Virus record (IMG/VR): IMGVR_UViG_3300046000_006512
Span: 1 to 21,146 of that record
Source of the DNA: a virus
Strand: one strand, 5' to 3'
Length of the DNA stretch: 21,146 nucleotides
A model generated the notes under the pieces. It was not told the origin of the DNA. It saw nothing but the letters and a program-made list of their open reading frames with translations, and did no database searches. Positions 2 to 19,899 of the stretch are shown here, one piece after another. A program made the translations under genes and the position numbers. Within the stretch, counting starts at the first letter, position 1. The number at the start of each line of letters is the position of its first letter.

Positions 2-517
2 ATCAAGAAAAACGTCGAACTGGCCCCATGGGCTGACGCTGTTTACGGCTGCGACTACCCGTGGTGGCGAAGCGTTCGGGGCCTGCCCGACTTCAACGGC
101 CTGAAGATGGCCTATGCCGTGCGGGCCTGCACTGAGTTCGGACTGACGCGGGTTCTCATCCCTGACGTTCGGTCGGAGGTCATCCTTGACGGGCCGGTCG
201 GTTCGGTCGGGGCTGGAGGGGCGTCGGGGTTTCAGGCGCTTAATCTGGCGGTGCAGTTCGGAGCCAAGCGCGTCCTTCTGATCGGGTTCGACGCGCAGGG
301 GCGGTCGGGCCTGCACTGGTACGGGCGCAATACGGCCAACGGGATGTCAAATCCCACAGACAGCAATTTCCGGCGCTGGCGGCTGGCGTTTGACGCCGTG
401 GCGCCGGGGCTGAAGGAGCGGGGCATTGACGTGGTCAACGCCTCGACGCTGAGCGACGTCAAAGGATTTCGGCGGATGCCGGTGTCTGACGCGCTCGCCG
501 AATGGGGAATGACGTGA
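2..517 (+). CDS. MptE/DUF115-like protein, 5' end missing
   Basis: The reading frame is open from base 2, so the gene starts left of the window; the first internal ATG is at 107. About 171 C-terminal residues are visible. Motifs are an APWAD..Y.CD..WW segment near the start, GASGFQALNLAV followed by GAKRVLLIGFD, then LHWYG, a FRRW segment and a VVNAS..S motif close to the end. This pattern is what I know from phage and bacterial proteins related to the DUF115/MptE-like Rossmann fold, which occur in surface-glycan and flagellin-glycosylation loci. The enzymatic reaction is not established by sequence. It overlaps the next glycosyltransferase gene, so it is probably part of the same glycan cassette. 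Family placement is recalled rather than searched. Confidence 0.65.
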   Translation: MKKNVELAPWADAVYGCDYPWWRSVRGLPDFNGLKMAYAVRACTEFGLTRVLIPDVRSEVILDGPVGSVGAGGASGFQALNLAVQFGAKRVLLIGFDAQGRSGLHWYGRNTANGMSNPTDSNFRRWRLAFDAVAPGLKERGIDVVNASTLSDVKGFRRMPVSDALAEWGMT

Positions 518-1197
518 AGCGCAGCATCTACGTCGGGTTTGATCCGCGTGAGGAGACGGCCTGTCTTGTGGCCATCCGGTCAATGGTCGGTCGGATGTCG
601 CGCTATATCCCTGTCAATGCAATCCGGCTGGAGGAGCTTCGCGAGGCCGGGCTTTACACCCGCCCGATGGAAACCCGTGACGGGCGCATGTGGGACGTGA
701 TTTCGCAGGCGCCGATGGCCACTGAACACGCCTGCGCACGCTTCCTGACGCCGCATCTGGCGAAAGAGGGGTGGGCGGTCTTCATGGACGGCGACGTGCT
801 GATCCGGGCCGACATCGGAGAGATTTTTGAGGGGCTTGACCCGTCGAAGGCGCTCTATTGCGTCAAGCATGACCACCGGCCCGAACACACGGTCAAAATG
901 GACGGGCAGGCGCAGACGATTTACCCGCGCAAGAACTGGTCCAGCGTGATGGTCTTCAACTGCGATCATCTGGCAAACAAGGCGCTGACGGTCGAACTGG
1001 TCAACAGCGTGCCTGGCCGAGACCTGCACCGCTTCTGTTGGCTGACGGATGATCTAATCGGCGATCTGGACCCGGCGTGGAATTGGCTTGTTCCTGCGGT
1101 TGATCCGAAGATTGCGCACTTTACCGAAGGCGTGCCGGACATGGCGGGGTATGAGCGCCAGTTCTACGCCGACGAATGGCGCGAGTTTGTCGGCTGA
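514..1197 (+). CDS. GT-A glycosyltransferase (GT8-like)
   Basis: A 227-residue protein starting IYVGFDPREE, the usual N-terminus of a GT8-like group of small glycosyltransferases in phages and alphaproteobacteria. The metal- and nucleotide-sugar-binding DxD motif is seen as MDGD at about residues 91-94, at the end of a hydrophobic strand (WAVF). The NWSSVMVFNC segment is typical of the acceptor side of such folds. It should move a sugar from a nucleotide-sugar donor to an unknown acceptor in the cytoplasm. I chose GTG at 514, which gives a GTGA overlap with the upstream stop and has GGGGA just before it; ATG at 502 in the same frame is the alternative and lacks an obvious ribosome binding site. 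The stop overlaps the next ATG as TGATG. Confidence 0.75.
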   Translation: MKRSIYVGFDPREETACLVAIRSMVGRMSRYIPVNAIRLEELREAGLYTRPMETRDGRMWDVISQAPMATEHACARFLTPHLAKEGWAVFMDGDVLIRADIGEIFEGLDPSKALYCVKHDHRPEHTVKMDGQAQTIYPRKNWSSVMVFNCDHLANKALTVELVNSVPGRDLHRFCWLTDDLIGDLDPAWNWLVPAVDPKIAHFTEGVPDMAGYERQFYADEWREFVG

Positions 1198-1982
1198 TGG
1201 GCCTTGGAGATCAGCTTCTCGCCACGGGCATGGCGCGCGGGGCGAGGGCAAGGGGAAAACTGATAGCGTTCGGCGATGGCCGGCGCATCAGGTGGGACCA
1301 GAACAGCGCGACGGTGTTTCAGGGGAACCCGAACATCGCGAGGCCCGGAAGTGAACAGCGGGCGCGTGATCTGGAGTGGGTGCCCTACTACAAAGGCCAT
1401 CGGATCTACAATCGCCACGACGTCTCCCGGAACCGATGGATATGGAACGAGGATTTCCGGCCCATCCCCGGCGAGATGTTCCTGAGTGACTCCGAAAAGA
1501 GGTCGGCGGCGCGGTACGGCTCGCGGTTCATCGTGATCGAGCCGAACGTCGAAACGTGGAAGTCCAGCGCGGCGAACAAGGACTGGGGCCGGGAGAAGTA
1601 CCAGGAGGTCGCTGACGTCCTGCGGCGGGATCACAGGGTGGTGCAGTTCACGCATCCCAAGTCCGGCCCCTTGCTTCGCGGTGTTGAGGCGCTGGCGACC
1701 AACAACTTCCGAGACGCGCTGGGGATCATGGCGCGGGCCTCGCTGTATGTCGGGCCGGAGGGTGGGCTTCACCACGGCGCGGCAGCGATGAGCGTTCCGG
1801 GCGTGGTTCTGTTCGGCGGTTTCATCCCGCCCTCGGTGACGGGATACGAGACGCATACGAACCTCACCGGCGGGGCTGAAGCCTGCGGCTCTTTGAGCCC
1901 GTGCAAGCACTGCCGGGACGCGATGGCCGCCATATCGGTGGACGAAGTTTTGACGGCGGCAAAGGAAAGGCTTGGCGGTTGA
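1197..1982 (+). CDS. GT9-like (heptosyltransferase-type) glycosyltransferase
   Basis: A 261-residue GT-B-like protein. It begins with a glycine-rich GLGDQLLATG segment. In the C-terminal half it has IVIEPN at about 112-117, a KDWGREKYQEVADVL helix, and the clear GT9 signature GPEGGLHHGAAAMSVPGVVLFG at about 186-207, written here in two halves: GPEGGLHHGAAA, then MSVPGVVLFG. GT9 enzymes include ADP-heptose:LPS heptosyltransferases. This copy is shorter than the usual 300-350 residues, and the N-terminal acceptor domain is reduced. A cysteine-rich CGSLSPCKHC lies near the C-terminus, as in several family members. The start at 1197 overlaps the upstream TGA as TGATG; a longer reading from 1176 is less likely. 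Donor and acceptor sugars cannot be told from sequence. Confidence 0.78.
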   Translation: MGLGDQLLATGMARGARARGKLIAFGDGRRIRWDQNSATVFQGNPNIARPGSEQRARDLEWVPYYKGHRIYNRHDVSRNRWIWNEDFRPIPGEMFLSDSEKRSAARYGSRFIVIEPNVETWKSSAANKDWGREKYQEVADVLRRDHRVVQFTHPKSGPLLRGVEALATNNFRDALGIMARASLYVGPEGGLHHGAAAMSVPGVVLFGGFIPPSVTGYETHTNLTGGAEACGSLSPCKHCRDAMAAISVDEVLTAAKERLGG

Positions 1983-2545
1983 ATAGCGCATACAAGGTGC
2001 AGCGTCGGGTGGCCGGGGAACATGACTTCCGGGTCGATGGCATGGCTGATCTTCTGCATCGGGCGCGCGGCGCATCGGTGTTCGACATCGGCTGCAATCG
2101 CGGGATGGTCGGCTTTGAGTTCGCGCGGAACGGGGCCACGAAGGTTCACGGCTGCGACATCTTCGACGTGGGGATCAACACCGCCCGCGAGGTCTTCGCT
2201 GATTTGAGGTCGGTTGATGCGCGGTTTGAGGTTGTGGACCTGACCGGCGGGCCGAAGGCGCTCGGGGCATTCTCCGGCGAGACCTACGACATCACGCTAT
2301 GTCTCGCGACCTATCACAAGCTGAAGCGGGTGATGACGCCGGGCGACCTTAGCGAGCTGGTCAAGCACTTCGGCAAGGCGACCAAGGGCTATTTTGCGTG
2401 GCGCGCGACGTCGGACAAGCCCGACGAGAACGACGCGGAAATGGCGGCGCTGGATCGCGACCTGGGGGCGGTTGGCCTTCGCCGCATTCACACGTCCTAC
2501 ATGAGCGCCGAACTGGGCGTTTGCGCGGTTTGGGGGAGGGTCTGA
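1979..2545 (+). CDS. Class I SAM-dependent methyltransferase
   Basis: A 188-residue protein with the SAM-binding motif I as VFDIGCNRGMVGFEF at about 34-48, a following acidic strand end (GCDIFDVG), and a motif-IV-like YDITLCLATYHKL. It has no DPPY- or PCQ-type DNA methyltransferase motif, so small-molecule or sugar methylation is more likely than DNA methylation. The start is taken as TTG at 1979, which overlaps the upstream TGA (TTGA) and is preceded by AAAGGAAAGG; a longer open frame from 1901 would overlap the previous gene by 80 bases. Position between glycosyltransferases suggests O-methylation of a sugar, possibly capping a glycan. The substrate is inference only. Confidence 0.75.
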   Translation: MNSAYKVQRRVAGEHDFRVDGMADLLHRARGASVFDIGCNRGMVGFEFARNGATKVHGCDIFDVGINTAREVFADLRSVDARFEVVDLTGGPKALGAFSGETYDITLCLATYHKLKRVMTPGDLSELVKHFGKATKGYFAWRATSDKPDENDAEMAALDRDLGAVGLRRIHTSYMSAELGVCAVWGRV

Positions 2546-3138
2546 TGGGCCGCTATCTGACGGACGCAGCGCAGGACCCGGCGGAGATCGCCGCCTTCTG
2601 TGACCTTTTGAAGCGCGAGGGCGTGGGATCTTATCTGGAGATCGGCTCCAAGTTCGGCGGCTCGCTCTGGCGCGCGGCGACGGCGCTTCCGGTGGGCTCG
2701 CTCATCGTGTCGGTGGACATGCCGGGCGGAACCAAGGCGTGGAAGGAAAGCGAGGCATCGCTGAAAGCCTGCCACGCCGAACTGCAACGGCTCGGCTACC
2801 GGACGCACGCCATCTGGGGCAACAGCATGGACCGGGCGGTTATCGAACAGGTGCGAGCACTAGGCCCGTTTGACGCCATGCTGATCGACGCGGACCACCG
2901 CTGGGACCCGGCAAATCCGACGCCAAATGGTGTGCAGGCCGACTTCCTAAATTACGGCCCAATGGGGAAGATCGTCGCGTTCCACGATCTGGCCTGGCGC
3001 CGGGCGCCGGAGTGGGTCGGGACGCGGATCAATGTCCCGGAGTTCTGGGCGTCGATCAAGGACGGCTACCGGCACGAGGAAATCATCCTCTGCCCGACCG
3101 GAAAAAATAACGGGCTCGGCATTCTGTGGCGCGACTAA
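2545..3138 (+). CDS. Class I methyltransferase (Methyltransf_24/CmcI-like)
   Basis: A 197-residue protein with LEIGSKFGGSLW at about 31-42 (SAM-binding loop), FDAMLIDADHRWD at about 109-121, and GKIVAFHDLAW further on. The D-x-DH and FHD pattern is characteristic of the CmcI/macrocin-O-methyltransferase-like class, where the acidic residues and His often bind a divalent metal. It is a different subgroup from the methyltransferase just upstream. ATG at 2545 overlaps the previous stop as TGATG and follows a strong GGGGGAGGG ribosome binding site; the longer frame from 2398 is ignored. Role in the cassette is inferred to be sugar O-methylation. Confidence 0.75.
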   Translation: MGRYLTDAAQDPAEIAAFCDLLKREGVGSYLEIGSKFGGSLWRAATALPVGSLIVSVDMPGGTKAWKESEASLKACHAELQRLGYRTHAIWGNSMDRAVIEQVRALGPFDAMLIDADHRWDPANPTPNGVQADFLNYGPMGKIVAFHDLAWRRAPEWVGTRINVPEFWASIKDGYRHEEIILCPTGKNNGLGILWRD

Positions 3139-3761
3139 TCCTGACGACCTGGGTCTGGGGCGAAAAGTACGGCCCCGACTACATCGCCAAGCTGGAGGGC
3201 TCGATAGCCCGCAACGTGACGGAGCCGTATGAGTTCCGCGTGATCCGCACGGATGACTCCCTGATCCATAAGAAGGGCTGCTTTGCCCGCCTCCGGGCGT
3301 TCGATCCTTACTGGCAGGCAAAGCAAGGGTTCATGCCCGGCGACCGCATCGTTTGCATGGACCTTGATCTGGTGGTGACGGGCTCGCTCGATGGTCTCTT
3401 TGACCGCGATGAGCCGTTTGTGATCCTTACCGGCGTGAACAGTTCCAACCCATGCCCCTACAACGGCAGTCTGTGGATGCTTCGCGCGGGCCATCGGCCT
3501 GATGTATGGGCGGACTTCTCTCTGGAGGCGGCGGCCAAGGTTCCGTTCGACAGCTTCCCCGACGACCAGGCATGGATGGCGCACAAGCTGCCGGATGCCG
3601 GAGCGTTCGGGCCTGAGACGGGCGTGTTTGGCTTCCACAAGCGCGGATGGCCCAAGGGCGAACATCTGCCGAAAGGCGCCCGCATCGTGGCGTTCCCCGG
3701 CTGGCGTGATCCGGTCGGGTTCCAACATCTGGATTGGGTGAAGCAACATTGGCGCGCGTAG
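3126..3761 (+). CDS. GT-A glycosyltransferase with DLD motif
   Basis: A 211-residue protein opening with LILTTWVWGEKYGPDYI and containing IVCMDLDLVVTGSLDGLF around 75-92. DLD at 79-81 is the DxD metal/nucleotide-sugar motif. PYNGSLWMLRAG and DDQAWM are the conserved later segments. It ends in WVKQHWRA, nearly the same C-terminus as the glycosyltransferase two genes downstream (WVRDHWR), so the two are likely paralogues. The start is GTG at 3126, overlapping the upstream stop by 13 bases, with no strong ribosome binding site, so translational coupling is likely. Donor and acceptor are unknown. Confidence 0.75.
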   Translation: MARLILTTWVWGEKYGPDYIAKLEGSIARNVTEPYEFRVIRTDDSLIHKKGCFARLRAFDPYWQAKQGFMPGDRIVCMDLDLVVTGSLDGLFDRDEPFVILTGVNSSNPCPYNGSLWMLRAGHRPDVWADFSLEAAAKVPFDSFPDDQAWMAHKLPDAGAFGPETGVFGFHKRGWPKGEHLPKGARIVAFPGWRDPVGFQHLDWVKQHWRA

Positions 3762-4222
3762 GCGATCCGCAGCTTGTCTACGGTGTCCACCCGCTGGCCC
3801 ATGTGGATGGCGATCATCTGGGCGTCACGGTCTGGCAGTTTGCATCGGTCATCCGGGGCGCACAGATCGGTGCAGGGTCCAGCATTGCCAGTTGCGCCAT
3901 CGTGGACGGCGCGCGGCTCGGAAAGGGCGTCAGGGTCGGCCACGGGGCCAGCATTCACCCCGGCGTCTGGATTGGTGATGACGTGTTCGTCGGGCCGGGC
4001 GCGGTGATCTGCAATGACCCGTGGCCCAAGGCTGGAAGCGGGTTCGACGTCTGCGAGCTTCTGGCCGGCAAGGTCGTGGTTAGGATTGAAGACGGCGCCA
4101 GCATTGGGGCCGGTTCGGTGATCTTGCCCGGCGTTACGGTCGGCAAGGGCGCGATGGTCGCCGCTGGTTCGGTGGTGACGCGGGATGTTCTGAAGGGATC
4201 GACGTGGCTTCAGAAACGCTGA
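3749..4222 (+). CDS. Left-handed beta-helix acyltransferase
   Basis: About 157 residues, dominated by imperfect hexapeptide repeats that form a left-handed parallel beta-helix: IRGAQIGAGSSI, VDGARLGKGVRVGHGA, IHPGVWIGDDVFVGPGAVI, then IEDGASIGAGSVILPGVTVG and a terminal AAGSVVTRDV. The VWQFASVIRGA opening and VICNDPWP loop recall sugar N- or O-acetyltransferases of the WbpD/WlbB/FdtC type, which use acetyl-CoA on nucleotide-linked amino sugars. TTG at 3749 is preceded by GGTGA at seven bases; TTG at 3734 in the same frame is possible. It likely acylates a sugar used by the neighbouring glycosyltransferases, but the exact substrate is not determinable. Confidence 0.78.
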   Translation: MARVGDPQLVYGVHPLAHVDGDHLGVTVWQFASVIRGAQIGAGSSIASCAIVDGARLGKGVRVGHGASIHPGVWIGDDVFVGPGAVICNDPWPKAGSGFDVCELLAGKVVVRIEDGASIGAGSVILPGVTVGKGAMVAAGSVVTRDVLKGSTWLQKR

Positions 4223-4824
4223 CGGTCGCGACGTGCTTCTGGACGCCGAACAAGCACACGGCGCAGGCCAGCCGGGTTTACACGCCGGAGTGGGTCAACA
4301 GGCTGGCGCGGGGCTTCCGGCGTAACCTGACGGTCCCGCATCGGTTCGTGGTCCTGACGGATCGCGAATACGAGTTTGACGACGGCATCGAGCAAGAGAG
4401 GCTTTCGACCGACACGCCGGACTGGTCATGCATGATCGAGCCCTTCCGCATCGACGGCCCGCTTATGGTGGTGGGTCTCGATACGGTGATCGTCGGGAAC
4501 ATCGACGCGCTGGCGCACTGGACGGTGAACCTGGACCGCCTCGCGCTGCCGAGATCGCCCGGCAAGGACTACGCCTGCAACGCCATCGCCTTGGTCCCGC
4601 AAGGACATACGGATGTCTTTATGCGGTGGCGCGGCGAGAACGACATGGAGTGGCTGCGGACCTTTCCGCACACGTTCATTGACGAGCGGTTCTCCGGATG
4701 GGTCTCGTCCTACAAGTGCGACGTGAGGCCGAACGGGCTTGGCGAAAGCCGCATCGTTTACATGCACGGGCGGCCCAAGATGGATGAGATTGACGCCGAT
4801 TGGGTGCGGGACCATTGGCGATAG
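4204..4824 (+). CDS. GT-A glycosyltransferase-like protein with altered DxD motif
   Basis: A 206-residue paralogue-like partner of the gene at 3126. It opens LTVATCFWTPNKH, carries HRFVVLTDREYEF, and has LMVVGLDTVIVGNIDAL around 87-103. Aligning this with MDLDLVVTGSLDGLF of the earlier gene puts Gly at the first Asp of the DxD motif (GLD at 91-93), while the second Asp is kept. YACNAIALVPQG matches the usual acceptor-side segment, and HGRPKMDEID..WVRDHWR is the shared C-terminal signature. GTG at 4204 follows AAGGGA at good spacing and overlaps the upstream gene by 19 bases. It may be active with a relaxed metal site or serve as a non-catalytic partner. Confidence 0.7.
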   Translation: MASETLTVATCFWTPNKHTAQASRVYTPEWVNRLARGFRRNLTVPHRFVVLTDREYEFDDGIEQERLSTDTPDWSCMIEPFRIDGPLMVVGLDTVIVGNIDALAHWTVNLDRLALPRSPGKDYACNAIALVPQGHTDVFMRWRGENDMEWLRTFPHTFIDERFSGWVSSYKCDVRPNGLGESRIVYMHGRPKMDEIDADWVRDHWR

Positions 4825-5624
4825 ACCCGGCGCAAACCGCGTTCTTCCGGCCCGATGGCCTGAGCGCGTTCAAGGTCAAACTTTTTGACCGGGTAGGGAA
4901 CACAATCCAGAACGCGGGCGGCGCCTACGTCAAAGGCGACTTCGCGCTTCTGGATCACAAGGTCAGCAAGGGCCGCATTCCCATCGTGGGCTGCACGCCT
5001 GAGCTTCGGCCCTACATCGACAAGTGGAAGGCGGACGGACGCACCTGGATTTATTGGGACCGGGGATACTTCCGCCGGGTGTTTGCAACGGACCTTCCGA
5101 CCGGAGAGGCGGGCGGCTTCTATCGTTGGCAGGTCAACGCCTACCAGATGCGCGAGGTGGGGGACGTCCCGGCGAATCGGTGGCAGGCGGCATCGACGCC
5201 GCTCTGGCCGTGGTCGCGGGCGGCAAGTCACATCGTCGTCGCCGAGCCCTCGCCGACCTATCAGCGGTTCCACGGGATCGAGGGCTGGACGGAGCGGACT
5301 ATCAAGGCGCTGAGGGCGAAGACGGATCGCAAGATCATCGTCCGCGACAAGGAAATGCAGGCCGCCGGCCATCGTCTAAGCCGTGATCTGAAGGGCGCGC
5401 ATTGCCTCGTGACGCACGGCAGCAACGCGGCGGTCGAGGCGGCCATCATGGGCTGCCCGGTGTTTGTCCACCAAGACAGCGCGGCTGCTGTGATCGGGCG
5501 GACTGATCTGGAAATTGAAGACCCACTTTATCCCGACCGGGAAGCGTGGGTGCGGTCGCTGGCCTATTCGCAGTTTAACGAACGCGAGCTGATCGACGGG
5601 ACGCTTTGGAGGTTGCTGGCATGA
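4815..5624 (+). CDS. Capsule-synthesis / GT-B-like protein
   Basis: A 269-residue protein with no clean textbook motif. The N-terminal half has FDRVGNTIQNAGG, IPIVGCTPELRPYI and TWIYWDRGYFRR. The C-terminal half has KIIVRDKEM then HCLVTHGSNAAVEAAIMG followed by CPVFV at about 197-217. This last stretch resembles the nucleotide-sugar-binding end of KpsC/KpsS-type capsule enzymes and other GT-B folds (a T-x-S-x-x-x-EA-x-x-x-G-x-P pattern). Similar proteins are found in phages near glycosyltransferases. TTG at 4815 sits at the same CATTGGCG junction as the TTG at 3749; TTG at 4800 is an alternative. It is the last gene before the head-tail connector block. Function is tentative. Confidence 0.55.
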   Translation: MAIDPAQTAFFRPDGLSAFKVKLFDRVGNTIQNAGGAYVKGDFALLDHKVSKGRIPIVGCTPELRPYIDKWKADGRTWIYWDRGYFRRVFATDLPTGEAGGFYRWQVNAYQMREVGDVPANRWQAASTPLWPWSRAASHIVVAEPSPTYQRFHGIEGWTERTIKALRAKTDRKIIVRDKEMQAAGHRLSRDLKGAHCLVTHGSNAAVEAAIMGCPVFVHQDSAAAVIGRTDLEIEDPLYPDREAWVRSLAYSQFNERELIDGTLWRLLA

Positions 5625-7956: not shown

Positions 7957-8108
7957 CCAGATCCAGTCTCTGGCATTTCGCCAGAGCCTTTGAGGGCTGG
8001 AAAGCGGCGAACGGCGCTCCTGAAAAGGTCCGCGCTCCGACCGATGAAGAATTTGAAGCCGCAGTGAGAGCATCGAGGGAGGCGGAACTTGGCGCAAACC
8101 GAACTTGA
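7932..8108 (+). CDS. Tail assembly chaperone, second ORF (TIGR02216-like)
   Basis: A 58-residue ORF beginning MGWSARDVARSSLWHFARA, followed by EGWKAANG and PTDEEFEAAV. This is the pattern of the short conserved protein found directly before the tape measure gene in alphaproteobacterial phages and gene transfer agents. ATG at 7932 has GGAG five bases ahead, so it can be translated on its own; it could also be reached by a -1 shift from the upstream chaperone. It overlaps that gene by 25 bases and the tape measure start by 20 bases. It is easily missed because of its size. Confidence 0.82.
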   Translation: MGWSARDVARSSLWHFARAFEGWKAANGAPEKVRAPTDEEFEAAVRASREAELGANRT

Positions 8109-16905: not shown

Positions 16906-17166
16906 ATGACGACGAAGACACAGGTTGTTGGCCGGGCTCTGCTTATGCGGGCGCTCATGAACGGCATCGAGCGGCGAACGCAGGAAAGCATCGACGACGC
17001 GGCGGACGCGGGGCTGACCGGCGCCGTGGAAAAGTTGACCGAGGCGCAGGGCTACCTTGAGCAGGCCCACGCCGCGTTCAACGCGCTCCCGCCCATGCTG
17101 GCCGCGCACTTCGGCGACACGGACGTCACGCCGTATTCCGGCGGCGACGACAAGCCGCCTCAATAG
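16906..17166 (+). CDS. Small hypothetical protein
   Basis: An 86-residue soluble protein with a helical core (RALLMRALMNGIERRTQESI and VEKLTEAQGYLEQAHAAF) and a flexible C-terminus ending GGDDKPPQ. There is no membrane segment or recognised domain. It has its own leader with GGAGG eight bases before ATG, downstream of a stable hairpin. It opens the lysis block, one base-pair step before a membrane protein gene. Function unknown. Confidence 0.6.
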   Translation: MTTKTQVVGRALLMRALMNGIERRTQESIDDAADAGLTGAVEKLTEAQGYLEQAHAAFNALPPMLAAHFGDTDVTPYSGGDDKPPQ

Positions 17167-17167
17167 C

Positions 17168-17656
17168 ATGGGGCCGCTTGCGACAGCCTACACGCTGGCG
17201 ACGCTGGCAATGTTCCTGGTGTGCGCCATTGCGCGGAACTGCACAGACGACGCCGACCGGGTGGCCAGAGCGGCGGCATGGCTGGCGTTTGGGGTGGGAA
17301 TGAGCCGGATAGTTTCGGCCTTGGTTCCCGCCCCTTGGTCAATGGCGCATTACCCGGCGCAAGACCTGTTCATGCTGGCCCTGTGCCTTGGCTGGTTTCA
17401 GGTGCGCCGGGAATGGTGGGCGGTCCTGCTGGCGACGTGCTTCGCCGTCCAGCTTTACATGCACGCCGCGTTCTGGTGGGCGCATGATGCAAGCGCGCTG
17501 CGCTCCTACATCATCCAGAACAACGCGGTCTTTATCGCCGAACTGTTGATTCTGACGGTGGCGGGAGGCCGTTATGTGGTTGCTGGTATCGGCGCTCGCC
17601 TTCGGATGCTTGGCGGCTGGCATCGCCCTCGTCTGGCATACGTGGGGGCGTCGTGA
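17168..17656 (+). CDS. Polytopic membrane protein in lysis region
   Basis: A 162-residue, very hydrophobic protein with about five membrane segments: near residues 3-21 (ATAYTLATLAMFLVCAIA), 35-55 (AWLAFGVGMSRIVSALV), 62-76 (QDLFMLALCLGWFQV), 80-100 (WAVLLATCFAVQLYMHAAF) and 115-135 (FIAELLILTVAGG). It is rich in Trp and Met. It belongs to no holin family I can name and has more segments than common holins. ATG at 17168 is one base after the previous stop; the frame is open further left but that part lies inside the upstream gene. Its 3' end contains another small ORF in a different frame. Confidence 0.6.
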   Translation: MGPLATAYTLATLAMFLVCAIARNCTDDADRVARAAAWLAFGVGMSRIVSALVPAPWSMAHYPAQDLFMLALCLGWFQVRREWWAVLLATCFAVQLYMHAAFWWAHDASALRSYIIQNNAVFIAELLILTVAGGRYVVAGIGARLRMLGGWHRPRLAYVGAS

Positions 17657-17669
17657 ACGTGAGCGCTGA
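17574..17669 (+). CDS. Nested 31-aa single-membrane-segment peptide
   Basis: An ORF of 31 codons starting MWLLVSALAFGCLAAG, then IALVWHTWGRRERER. It is one predicted membrane helix with a short charged C-terminus (N-out/C-in or the reverse is not clear). A near-ideal GGGAGG stands five bases before ATG 17574, stronger than the sites of its neighbours. It lies largely within the 3' end of the membrane protein gene at 17168 in another frame and overlaps the start of the next gene. It resembles tiny accessory lysis or pinholin-modulating peptides in shape only. Too short for standard gene calling. Confidence 0.5.
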   Translation: MWLLVSALAFGCLAAGIALVWHTWGRRERER

Positions 17670-17907
17670 ACTGCTGTCAGGCGTGCTTGTCGCCGTGGTC
17701 GGGGGTGGGGGACTTTGGGCCTATCTCGGGGCTCGGGGCAAAACCAAGGCCGATCTTATCACCATAGCGCAGGATGCTGCGGGGTCCGTCATTCAGAGCT
17801 TGCGCGAGGAAATCCACCGGCTGAACGAGCGCATTGGCGAACTGGAAATCCAGGACGAAAGGTGCAAACGCGAACTGGCGGACCTGCGTCGGAGGATTGA
17901 AGCATGA
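17653..17907 (+). CDS. Membrane-anchored coiled-coil protein
   Basis: An 84-residue protein with an N-terminal membrane segment (LLSGVLVAVVGGGGLWAYLG, about 7-26) and then a charged heptad-like helix (IQSLREEIHRLNERIGELEI through RCKRELADLRRRIEA). Starts available are GTG at 17653 and GTG at 17659; the first follows GGGGG. Similar one-helix-plus-coil proteins occur in phage lysis regions near holins, but the true Rz-like spanin is a separate gene at 19208. Its stop overlaps the next start (ATGA). Confidence 0.6.
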   Translation: MNVSAELLSGVLVAVVGGGGLWAYLGARGKTKADLITIAQDAAGSVIQSLREEIHRLNERIGELEIQDERCKRELADLRRRIEA

Positions 17908-18260
17908 ACGGCTTCGACCGCGTGAAAGCGTGGGCATCGGCCGCGCGGGACGTGTTTGCCCTGCTGTTCACGCCGGTCCTGTCGGTCATCCTGGTCTGGC
18001 TGATCTGCATCCTCGCCTATGGGGCGTGGGAGGCGGACACTCAGGGGCAGAGGATCAACTACCTGGGCGCCCTGTCGATAGCCCTGGCGGTCCTGATCGG
18101 GCTCGGGGGGCAGTGGTTTCAGCGCAACCGGCTGGAGAAGCTGAAGGTCAGCGGGCCGGGCGGGTTCGGGGGCGAGATCGAGACCCAGGCGGACAACGGC
18201 GCCACCGTCACCACGACCACGACCACGGAAGTTACGCCAGCGGGCGACGCCAAGCCTTAG
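17904..18260 (+). CDS. Two-segment membrane protein, holin candidate
   Basis: A 118-residue protein with two clear membrane segments: about 17-41 (VFALLFTPVLSVILVWLICI) and 52-69 (YLGALSIALAVLIGLGG), a basic region after the second (QRNRLEKLK), and a Gly/Thr-rich polar tail with a run of six Thr. Two helices and a charged tail upstream of an endolysin fit a class-II-like holin, though the 118 residues and long tail are larger than usual. ATG at 17904 overlaps the upstream stop. Assignment is by position and shape. Confidence 0.55.
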   Translation: MNGFDRVKAWASAARDVFALLFTPVLSVILVWLICILAYGAWEADTQGQRINYLGALSIALAVLIGLGGQWFQRNRLEKLKVSGPGGFGGEIETQADNGATVTTTTTTEVTPAGDAKP

Positions 18261-18333
18261 ACAACCCTGAAACCTTCGGCAGGCGGGAGGTGATCCTTGT
18301 CGTTGAGGGCGTCCTGATCGGGGTGGGTGTCGC

Positions 18334-18438
18334 ATGGCTCTGCTGGCGTTCGCAGGCGGCTTTGCGCTGGGTGTCGGGTCTGTTGTCGCGGCTGCGTGGT
18401 TCGCGGCGCGATGGCTGCTCAGGCGGGCGGTGAGGTAG
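18334..18438 (+). CDS. Possible 34-aa membrane peptide
   Basis: An ORF of 34 codons starting MALLAFAGGFALGVGS, then VVAAAWFAARWLLRRAVR: one small-residue-rich membrane segment and a basic end. It shares its layout, including a M-x-LL start and Arg-rich finish, with the nested peptide at 17574. The ribosome binding site is weak (GGGGTG eight bases ahead). An alternative in another frame starts at GTG 18290 and encodes about 47 residues with ILVVEGVLIGVGVAWLCW followed by a basic tail. Only one, or neither, may be real. Confidence 0.35.
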   Translation: MALLAFAGGFALGVGSVVAAAWFAARWLLRRAVR

Positions 18439-18485
18439 TCGGCGGCGGCCCAACCGAGAGACCCCAGTCCAAAGCCGCCGCCGTT

Positions 18486-18559
18486 GCTGCGCTGGGATTC
18501 GAACCCTTCGGCGAGCGTCACGCCTACGACCAACCGTCGTGCTCTTCGGAATACGCAGC
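18486..18559 (-). other. tRNA-like element, not a canonical tRNA
   Basis: Read on the minus strand, GCTGCGT (18559-18553) can pair with GCGCAGC (18492-18486) as a seven-base closing stem with one G-T(U) pair. Inside it lies GGGTTCGAATCCC, the T-loop signature of tRNAs, plus ACGAC/GTCGT and GGCG/CGCC hairpins. The T-stem is only three pairs, no standard D-arm or seven-base anticodon loop with T33 is present, and no CCA follows. It may be a decayed tRNA, an attachment-site-like relic, or chance. Confidence 0.3.
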
Positions 18560-18593: not shown

Positions 18594-19211
18594 ATGGGCA
18601 TTGACCCATCGAAGTTCGCCGCGTTCGCCCCCCGCGCTTTGCCCGGCACCCGTGAGGCGCTGGAAGCTGCGGCGGCGCAAAGCGGCATTGCCGACCGTCT
18701 CGCCCTCGCTCACTGGCTGGGCCAGATGCGGGTGGAAAGCGCCGGGTTCACGACGCTGTCGGAAAGCCTCAACTACAGCGTCGAGGGGCTGCTAAAGCTG
18801 TTCGGGCGCCACCGCATCAGCGCCGCCGACTGCGACAAGTTCGGTCGCAAGCCGGGGCAGGCCGCAAACCAGAACGCGCTGGCGAATATCCTCTACGGCG
18901 GCGAGTGGGGGCGTAAGAACCTGGGGAACACAGAGCCGGGCGACGGGTGGCGATACCGAGGCGGCGGCGTGAAGCAGATCACGGGCCGGGCCAACTATCG
19001 CGAGGCAGGCCACGAAGACGACCCCGACACCCTGCGGACGGACATCAAGGCGAGCGCCTTCGCGGCGGCCAATTTCTTCGCCCGTCACGGCTGCATTGCG
19101 CCGGCAAGGGCAGATGACGTTGAGGCCGTGACCCGTCGTGTGAATGGGGGGCTTACGGGATTGGCCGAACGCATCGCCGCGACGAAGGCCGCAAAGGGTG
19201 TTGTCCTGTGA
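18594..19211 (+). CDS. Endolysin, GH19 chitinase-like lysozyme
   Basis: A 205-residue protein with the phage GH19-type pattern: LALAHWLGQMRVESAGF at about 36-52, where Glu48 is the expected catalytic acid, then TLSESLNYSVEGLLKLFGRH, ANILYGG.WG at about 97-106, and GDGWRYRGGGVKQITGRANY at 116-135. These enzymes cut the glycan strands of peptidoglycan. No signal peptide or membrane segment is seen, so release should depend on a holin. ATG at 18594 has GAGG ahead. The next gene starts just before this one's stop. Confidence 0.88.
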   Translation: MGIDPSKFAAFAPRALPGTREALEAAAAQSGIADRLALAHWLGQMRVESAGFTTLSESLNYSVEGLLKLFGRHRISAADCDKFGRKPGQAANQNALANILYGGEWGRKNLGNTEPGDGWRYRGGGVKQITGRANYREAGHEDDPDTLRTDIKASAFAAANFFARHGCIAPARADDVEAVTRRVNGGLTGLAERIAATKAAKGVVL

Positions 19212-19624
19212 TCGCCGCCGTTCTCTCCGTCATCACCTCCCGCTTTGCCGGGCCTGTCGCGCTGGCCGGCTGCGCTGTTCTGGCCATTGTCCTGATCGGC
19301 GCGAAGCTGGAAACGGGGCAGGTCCGCTCTGACCTTAAGGCCCAGGTAGCGGAAAGCCGACGCCTCGCGGATGCCCTCGGAACATGCCGGGCAAACGTGG
19401 CCAGCCTTGATGGTGCCCTGACCCGCCAGAATGAGGCCGTGGCGGTCGCACAGGCCAAGGGCGAGGCAATGGCCCGGAACGCTGAGAAGGCCGCCACAGA
19501 GGCGCGGAAGGCCCAAGGCAAGGCCGATGCGCTTGCGGCCAAGCTGGCGACGTTCACTCCGGGCGAAACGTGCGAGGCGAGGGAAACCAACGTGGCCGAT
19601 CTGATCGAGGGGCTGGACCGATGA
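19208..19624 (+). CDS. Rz-like inner-membrane spanin
   Basis: A 138-residue protein with a single N-terminal membrane segment (about 12-32, AGPVALAGCAVLAIVLIGA) followed by a long alanine/lysine/glutamate-rich coiled-coil (about 35-115) and a short C-terminus with CEARETNVADLIEG. This N-in/C-out plan and its place after the endolysin and before a small lipoprotein gene define an i-spanin. It would span the periplasm and pair with the lipoprotein to fuse the membranes at the end of lysis. The GTG start overlaps the endolysin stop. Confidence 0.8.
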   Translation: MIAAVLSVITSRFAGPVALAGCAVLAIVLIGAKLETGQVRSDLKAQVAESRRLADALGTCRANVASLDGALTRQNEAVAVAQAKGEAMARNAEKAATEARKAQGKADALAAKLATFTPGETCEARETNVADLIEGLDR

Positions 19625-19899
19625 AACGCGCCGCCGTCATCCTTGCGCTGGCCCTCGCCGGGTGCGCGACCACGCCAGAGCCGCAGATCATGGTTAAGGA
19701 AGTGCGCGTGCCCGTCGTCACGCCTTGCCCCATCGACACCACGGCGCCCGCCTACGTCGATACACTGGACGCCCTCAAAGCAGCAGCAGCGCGTGGATCG
19801 GATGCCGTGGTCGCGCTCCTCATCGGCGGGCGCTCGCAACGTGACGCACAGATCGCCGGGCTTAAGGCCCAGGCTGAGGCTTGTGGGTCGCTGGACTGA
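19621..19899 (+). CDS. Rz1-like outer-membrane lipoprotein spanin
   Basis: A 92-residue protein starting MKRAAVILALALAGCATTPE. The signal peptide ends in a clear lipobox (LAGC), so Cys15 should be lipidated; the mature protein begins CATTPEPQ and continues with a VRVPVVTPCP stretch and an alanine-rich helix. Together with the preceding i-spanin it forms a two-component spanin; the genes here overlap only by four bases (ATGA) rather than being nested as in lambda. GAGGGG lies eight bases ahead of ATG 19621. It is the last gene of the plus-strand late operon. Confidence 0.82.
   Translation: MKRAAVILALALAGCATTPEPQIMVKEVRVPVVTPCPIDTTAPAYVDTLDALKAAAARGSDAVVALLIGGRSQRDAQIAGLKAQAEACGSLD

Follow-up and report, generated by a model that had tools for sequence, protein, structure and literature searches.

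The short ORF at positions 17574-17669 is very probably a genuine overlapping gene. It lies on the plus strand of the window, by which we mean the whole 21,146-base virus record analyzed here, whose right half carries tail genes followed by a membrane and lysis region and an integrase. The fuller reading that we favor, and consider probable, is that it encodes an internally initiated inner-membrane peptide, whose most likely role would be that of a partner of the membrane protein in whose gene it starts (the container), of a nearby holin candidate or of both, tuning lysis. The assignment as a 31-residue single-pass membrane peptide is based on translation, on a conserved position in two diverged relatives, L006 and L030, and on a hydrophobicity greater than the codons of the container would yield.

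A small ORF in the +1 frame of a membrane-protein gene

The ORF begins with ATG at 17574, ends with TGA at 17667-17669 and encodes 31 amino acids, as confirmed base by base; its translation is MWLLVSALAFGCLAAGIALVWHTWGRRERER. The product has one hydrophobic stretch, with a best 19-residue Kyte-Doolittle mean of 2.30, followed by the tail GRRERER, which confirms the original prediction of a membrane peptide with a single hydrophobic helix and an arginine-rich end. The container (17168-17656, plus strand) is a 162-residue polytopic membrane protein with about five helices, as placed by a structure model of low confidence (mean pLDDT 59.7). Relative to the container, the small ORF is in the +1 frame, its first base falling on the second position of a container codon. 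The prediction had described it as hidden inside another gene; the different frame and the overlap are as described, but the last 13 nucleotides run past the container stop, and a second gene, starting with GTG at 17653, is overlapped by 17 nucleotides.

The motif GGGAGG at 17563-17568 (plus strand) lies five bases 5' of the ATG, the spacing that had been called ideal, and is a strong Shine-Dalgarno candidate. Its estimated anti-Shine-Dalgarno energy is -10.4, compared with -0.5 for the container, -8.4 for the 84-residue gene that follows, -9.5 for the 118-residue gene beyond it, -9.3 for the 86-residue gene upstream and -7.3 for the endolysin; the claim that this ribosome binding site is better than those of its neighbors is thus borne out. 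Among the starts scored, only that of the tape-measure gene at 8089 has a stronger site (-11.7). The motif is partly forced, since it is formed by the Ala-Gly-Gly codons of the container, and in the predicted RNA the accessibility of the motif and start was 0.23, the lowest of 11 starts tested in the window. The start reads AUGUG in the window and in L030 but not in L006; sites of this kind are reported to initiate translation in two frames in E. coli (PMC9841429).

Codon usage in the small ORF is intermediate and indecisive (mean log RSCU 0.03). When products were classed as transmembrane-like at a best 19-residue mean of at least 1.9, the class contained 16 of the 728 unannotated candidate starts of 20-120 codons on both strands of the window. 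Those on the coding strand were the small ORF itself, an internal TTG start within it, and three others that lie in the gap separating the 118-residue gene from the endolysin or extend into it.

Searches of PHROGs, NCBIfam and PADLOC gave no family match for the peptide, and the only match in Pfam was LapA_dom (PF06305), at E=0.014 and 15.7 bits against a cut-off of 28. Eight matches to solved structures were all at chance level (E of at least 2), and Rfam gave no match. A literature search returned no description of the peptide, which is not proof that none exists.

Conservation and selection in the overlap

A pair of IMG/VR records that agree at every one of the 7,729 bases compared carry a container 99% identical to that of the window. 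All 13 codons that differ in the container upstream of the overlap are silent, as are 18 of the 20 that differ in the 84-residue gene; the single differing base in the overlap replaces a proline of the container with serine and leaves the peptide unchanged. The container of L006 is 37% identical to that of the window (40% by pairwise alignment), and that of L030 is 34% identical to that of the window and 55% to that of L006. L030 was found through a degenerate DNA pattern that matched eight stretches, of which four were known records or L030 itself and the rest were chance matches as judged by frame. We therefore speak of three lineages: the window with its pair of near relatives, L006 and L030.

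All three lineages with a closely related container have an ATG at the same container codon, opening a +1 ORF with one hydrophobic helix. In L006 this ORF occupies 1134-1286 and its product begins MSLVMFGLACLCFIGGLRLVARME; in L030 it is on the minus strand, coding over 5441-5581, and its product begins MWVAMFGLASLCFIAALLLLCRTAK. Each is preceded by a Shine-Dalgarno-like run (GGGGGGC, -9.4, in L006; GGGGGC, -8.6, in L030). The peptides vary in length, with 31 residues in the window, 50 in L006 and 47 in L030, while their N-terminal helical part has M1, L8, A9, C12 and L19 in all three. Loss of the ORF or its start from close relatives that keep the container, which had been named as evidence against the gene, was looked for, and the ATG, a G-rich ribosome binding site and the helix are instead kept in all three lineages.

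In each lineage the container stop shares bases with the start of the next gene, as GTGA in the window and L006 and as ATGA in L030, and 14 of 28 positions of the container tail are identical between L006 and L030. Together these observations suggest that both frames are used in L006 and L030, and we reject the reading in which the frame really ends in the peptide and the container tail is an artifact. Access to the peptide by frameshifting from the container was also considered and seems unnecessary, each lineage having an ATG and a Shine-Dalgarno-like run of its own.

The hydrophobicity of the +1 product was compared with a null model in which the container protein was held fixed over the overlap, synonymous codons were drawn at genome frequencies and the +1 frame was translated. 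For each of the three lineages, none of 50,000 draws attained the observed value (an earlier run for the window gave 2 of 50,000), and with its own small codon table L006 gave P=8e-5. The small ORFs have z scores of 4.03, 4.26 and 7.19, whereas control segments within genes reached at most 2.01 in the +1 frame (n=197) and 2.87 in the +2 frame (n=217), none of them transmembrane-like. These high values stem from an excess of T in the third position of container codons that is confined to the overlap, where this base is the second position of the peptide codons and so specifies hydrophobic residues. Third-position T occurs in 10/27, 13/28 and 12/29 codons of the overlap and in 15/135, 16/143 and 14/149 codons of the container upstream (Fisher tests of 0.002, 5e-5 and 8e-5).

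The peptides of different lineages are also more similar than expected from the alignment of their containers (P=0.006, 0.014 and 0.045). Where two containers share a residue, identity of its codon reached significance for just one pair of the three (0.017; the others 0.66 and 0.43). The lineages share ancestry, so that these three-lineage statistics are not fully independent. The resampling and the control segments support selection on the peptide over and above that on the container, and codon identity does so more weakly. Conservation across three diverged lineages, together with the codon resampling, gives strong support to the proposal of an overlooked membrane-peptide gene.

Gene neighborhood and distribution of the peptide

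Directly upstream of the container, and apparently its partner, is a gene for an 86-residue protein ending in SGGDDKPP (16906-17166, plus strand). The container model gave no viral fold match at E of 0.001 or below, and because of its low confidence its fold matches served only as leads; among solved structures the container had no match at E of 1 or below. Downstream, all on the plus strand, follow an 84-residue protein with an N-terminal transmembrane segment and a coiled coil (17653-17907), which begins before the small gene ends; a 118-residue protein with two transmembrane segments (17904-18260), a holin candidate by position and topology with a PHROG holin match of only E=0.09; an endolysin in which no transmembrane segment was seen (18594-19211; PHROG 181, E=4.5e-56); an Rz-like gene (19208-19624; match of only E=0.097); and an Rz1-like lipoprotein gene (19621-19899) with a lipobox, LAGC, read by eye. 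The peptide was itself considered as an Rz1-like o-spanin and rejected, as by eye it has no lipobox, the invariant Cys12 being preceded by AFG, ACL and ASL, and no charged n-region; the Rz1-like gene at 19621 is separate from it.

In the window, L006 and L030 the container and peptide directly precede coiled-coil/transmembrane, two-transmembrane, endolysin and spanin genes. The gene immediately 3' of the peptide differs between them: the window has the 84-residue coiled-coil protein there, L006 a protein with weak similarity to XhlA (PF10779, E=2.6e-4, below the cut-off) and L030 one that by eye is similar to that of L006. The 118-residue protein of the window is 94% identical to its counterpart in L006 (1407-1751), although identity falls to 37% between the adjoining containers and the intervening gene is different; this contrast marks a sharp mosaic junction.

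A second family of small peptides, of 33-35 residues with one transmembrane segment and a basic tail, is encoded between the 118-residue gene and the endolysin. The window copy (18334-18438) reads MALLAFAGGFALGVGSVVAAAWFAARWLLRRAVR, and others are found in L006 (1748-1849), L009 (4348-4455) and L007 (about 4339 to 4443); the ORF overlaps the end of the 118-residue gene in L006, L009 and apparently L007. In the window a 47-codon GTG ORF with a transmembrane-like segment (18290-18433) covers the same stretch in another frame; its Shine-Dalgarno motif abuts the start, so that this ORF is perhaps a remnant and not a gene. Just before the endolysin, 18483-18556 reads GGGATTCGAACCC and resembles a tRNA T-arm on the opposite strand; neither ARAGORN nor Rfam found a tRNA there, and the stretch is perhaps a remnant. 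At the left end of the window (107-4824), 5' of the head-tail genes, several genes appear by eye to be sugar-transfer- and acyltransferase-like.

A remote homologue of the container is found in Caulobacter jumbo phages (BLASTP E values of 4e-6 to 5e-7 within a seven-protein set), with 10 records in the phage collection. The family was reached from one of the L006 container's matches in the phage collection, all of which were weak (E of 0.3-1). In all four jumbo-phage homologues read, the peptide is absent: the +1 frame is stopped, no transmembrane-like off-frame ORF is listed, and third-position T occurs in 5-7 of 28 codons of the container tail. The same four carry an SGGNDKPP tail on the gene upstream of the container homologue, and no annotated lysis gene was found nearby in the stretches covered (about 2-5 kb), where the neighbors are unnamed genes. 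Tails of the SGG(D/N)DKPP type are common to otherwise little-similar proteins encoded directly 5' of the container in IMG/VR phages and Caulobacter jumbo phages (window 16906-17166; L006 414-701; L007 3063-3263; L027 2030-2269; L040-L042 558-797), and the same type is present in L030.

The container and the upstream SGG-tail protein form a two-gene unit more widespread than the peptide, which fits gain of the peptide by overprinting; its loss in the jumbo phages is a possible alternative. Every copy of the peptide found accompanies the container, at a site followed by lysis genes. Brevundimonas phage StAshley has coiled-coil/transmembrane, two-transmembrane, endolysin and Rz-like genes in order, and neither container nor peptide was seen, which implies that the peptide is not needed for lysis generally. 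Apart from those weak matches of the L006 container, searches for relatives of the container or its neighbors gave no hit in the phage, plasmid and genome-contig collections, and viral contigs scanned with an 86-residue-protein alignment and a three-row container alignment yielded no further lineage. Sansa20 of Caulobacter phage Sansa (KT001913; L039 7206-8051), annotated as a terminase small subunit, gave a weak fold match to the container; its N-terminal half appears by eye to be polytopic and container-like, and it is possibly misannotated.

Possible roles of the peptide

In our proposal, ribosomes would use the Shine-Dalgarno motif inside the container gene to initiate independently at the ATG of position 17574, on a transcript that presumably also covers the container and the membrane and lysis genes 3' of it. 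The predicted product, a 31-residue single-pass inner-membrane peptide, would by the positive-inside rule have its short N-terminus outside and its basic tail in the cytoplasm, and it may bind the container, the two-transmembrane holin candidate or both, tuning membrane opening for the soluble endolysin. As the endolysin shows no transmembrane segment, a holin should act, and a small membrane partner tuning that holin is a reasonable guess. The suggestion that the peptide is a lysis regulator agrees with its position directly 5' of lysis genes in the window, L006 and L030, and sits less easily with the container homologues of jumbo phages, which lack the peptide and have no annotated lysis gene in the stretches covered; a role in lysis, inferred from position, is quite possible. 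A role confined to the container is almost as likely as tuning of the holin.

The strongest competitor is a real overlapping gene that serves the container outside lysis, for example in superinfection exclusion or in stabilizing the container in the membrane; we regard this as a serious possibility, though not the one we expect. It is consistent with the constant company of the container, and with the jumbo phages, where the container family and its SGGNDKPP-tailed neighbor stand in stretches with no annotated lysis gene. The same phages imply that the function of the container as such is independent of the peptide, and the restriction of the peptide to sites followed by lysis genes, as well as the lack of a PADLOC match, argue against such a role.

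It is improbable that the peptide is itself a lytic, holin-like pore former. Small antiholins and class III holins, the latter with one transmembrane domain oriented N-in/C-out (PMC3556154), resemble it in having a single transmembrane segment and, in our case, a place in the lysis region; however, no sequence similarity to them was found, its charges predict the opposite orientation, and a two-transmembrane holin candidate is already present. We consider it very unlikely that translation of the ORF serves only to aid the start of the gene at 17653, with an irrelevant product: the ORF ends 16 nucleotides past that start, which the container stop overlaps too, but this stop already supplies coupling, the ORF end lies at no fixed distance, and selection for a hydrophobic product is strong. 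The least credible explanation is a chance ORF in a GC-rich genome, since, although open off-frames are common (they persist in 67-91% of resampled tails) and an ATG alone would arise at this start about 30% of the time, the combined hydrophobicity and T excess of three lineages was unmatched in 197 control segments.

The favored reading, a nested partner of the container or holin candidate, invites comparison with the embedded and overlapped spanins (lambda Rz/Rz1, P2 lysB/lysC), which likewise place a short, membrane-directed +1 gene near the 3' end of a membrane-protein gene in the lysis region. The peptide differs in being a predicted single-pass inner-membrane protein without a lipobox, and its host gene is polytopic and not an i-spanin, the Rz-like and Rz1-like genes being separate and downstream. 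A resemblance to XhlA-type hemolysin/holin modules lies in the XhlA-like coiled-coil/transmembrane gene directly 3' of the peptide in L006; XhlA would there be the neighbor, not the peptide, and the window has another coiled-coil/transmembrane protein in that place. A survey of spanins counted 182 embedded and 228 overlapped systems, with 196 o-spanins missed in annotation, and describes gene callers as biased against genes so arranged (PMC6139136).

The peptide gene is a statistically supported instance of this type of gene, and suggests that spanins are not the only genes nested in phage lysis regions. Measuring second-frame hydrophobicity under resampling of first-frame codons is applicable to any phage lysis region. 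Tentatively, and with less confidence than in the lysis role itself, these peptides may represent an undescribed family of nested inner-membrane microproteins that arose when a phage membrane protein with five helices entered the lysis region and had its cytoplasmic tail overprinted, and that determine when lysis occurs in Brevundimonas-like phages. Set beside the peptide-less jumbo-phage homologues, the window, L006 and L030 provide a natural comparison for the origin of a membrane microprotein by overprinting.
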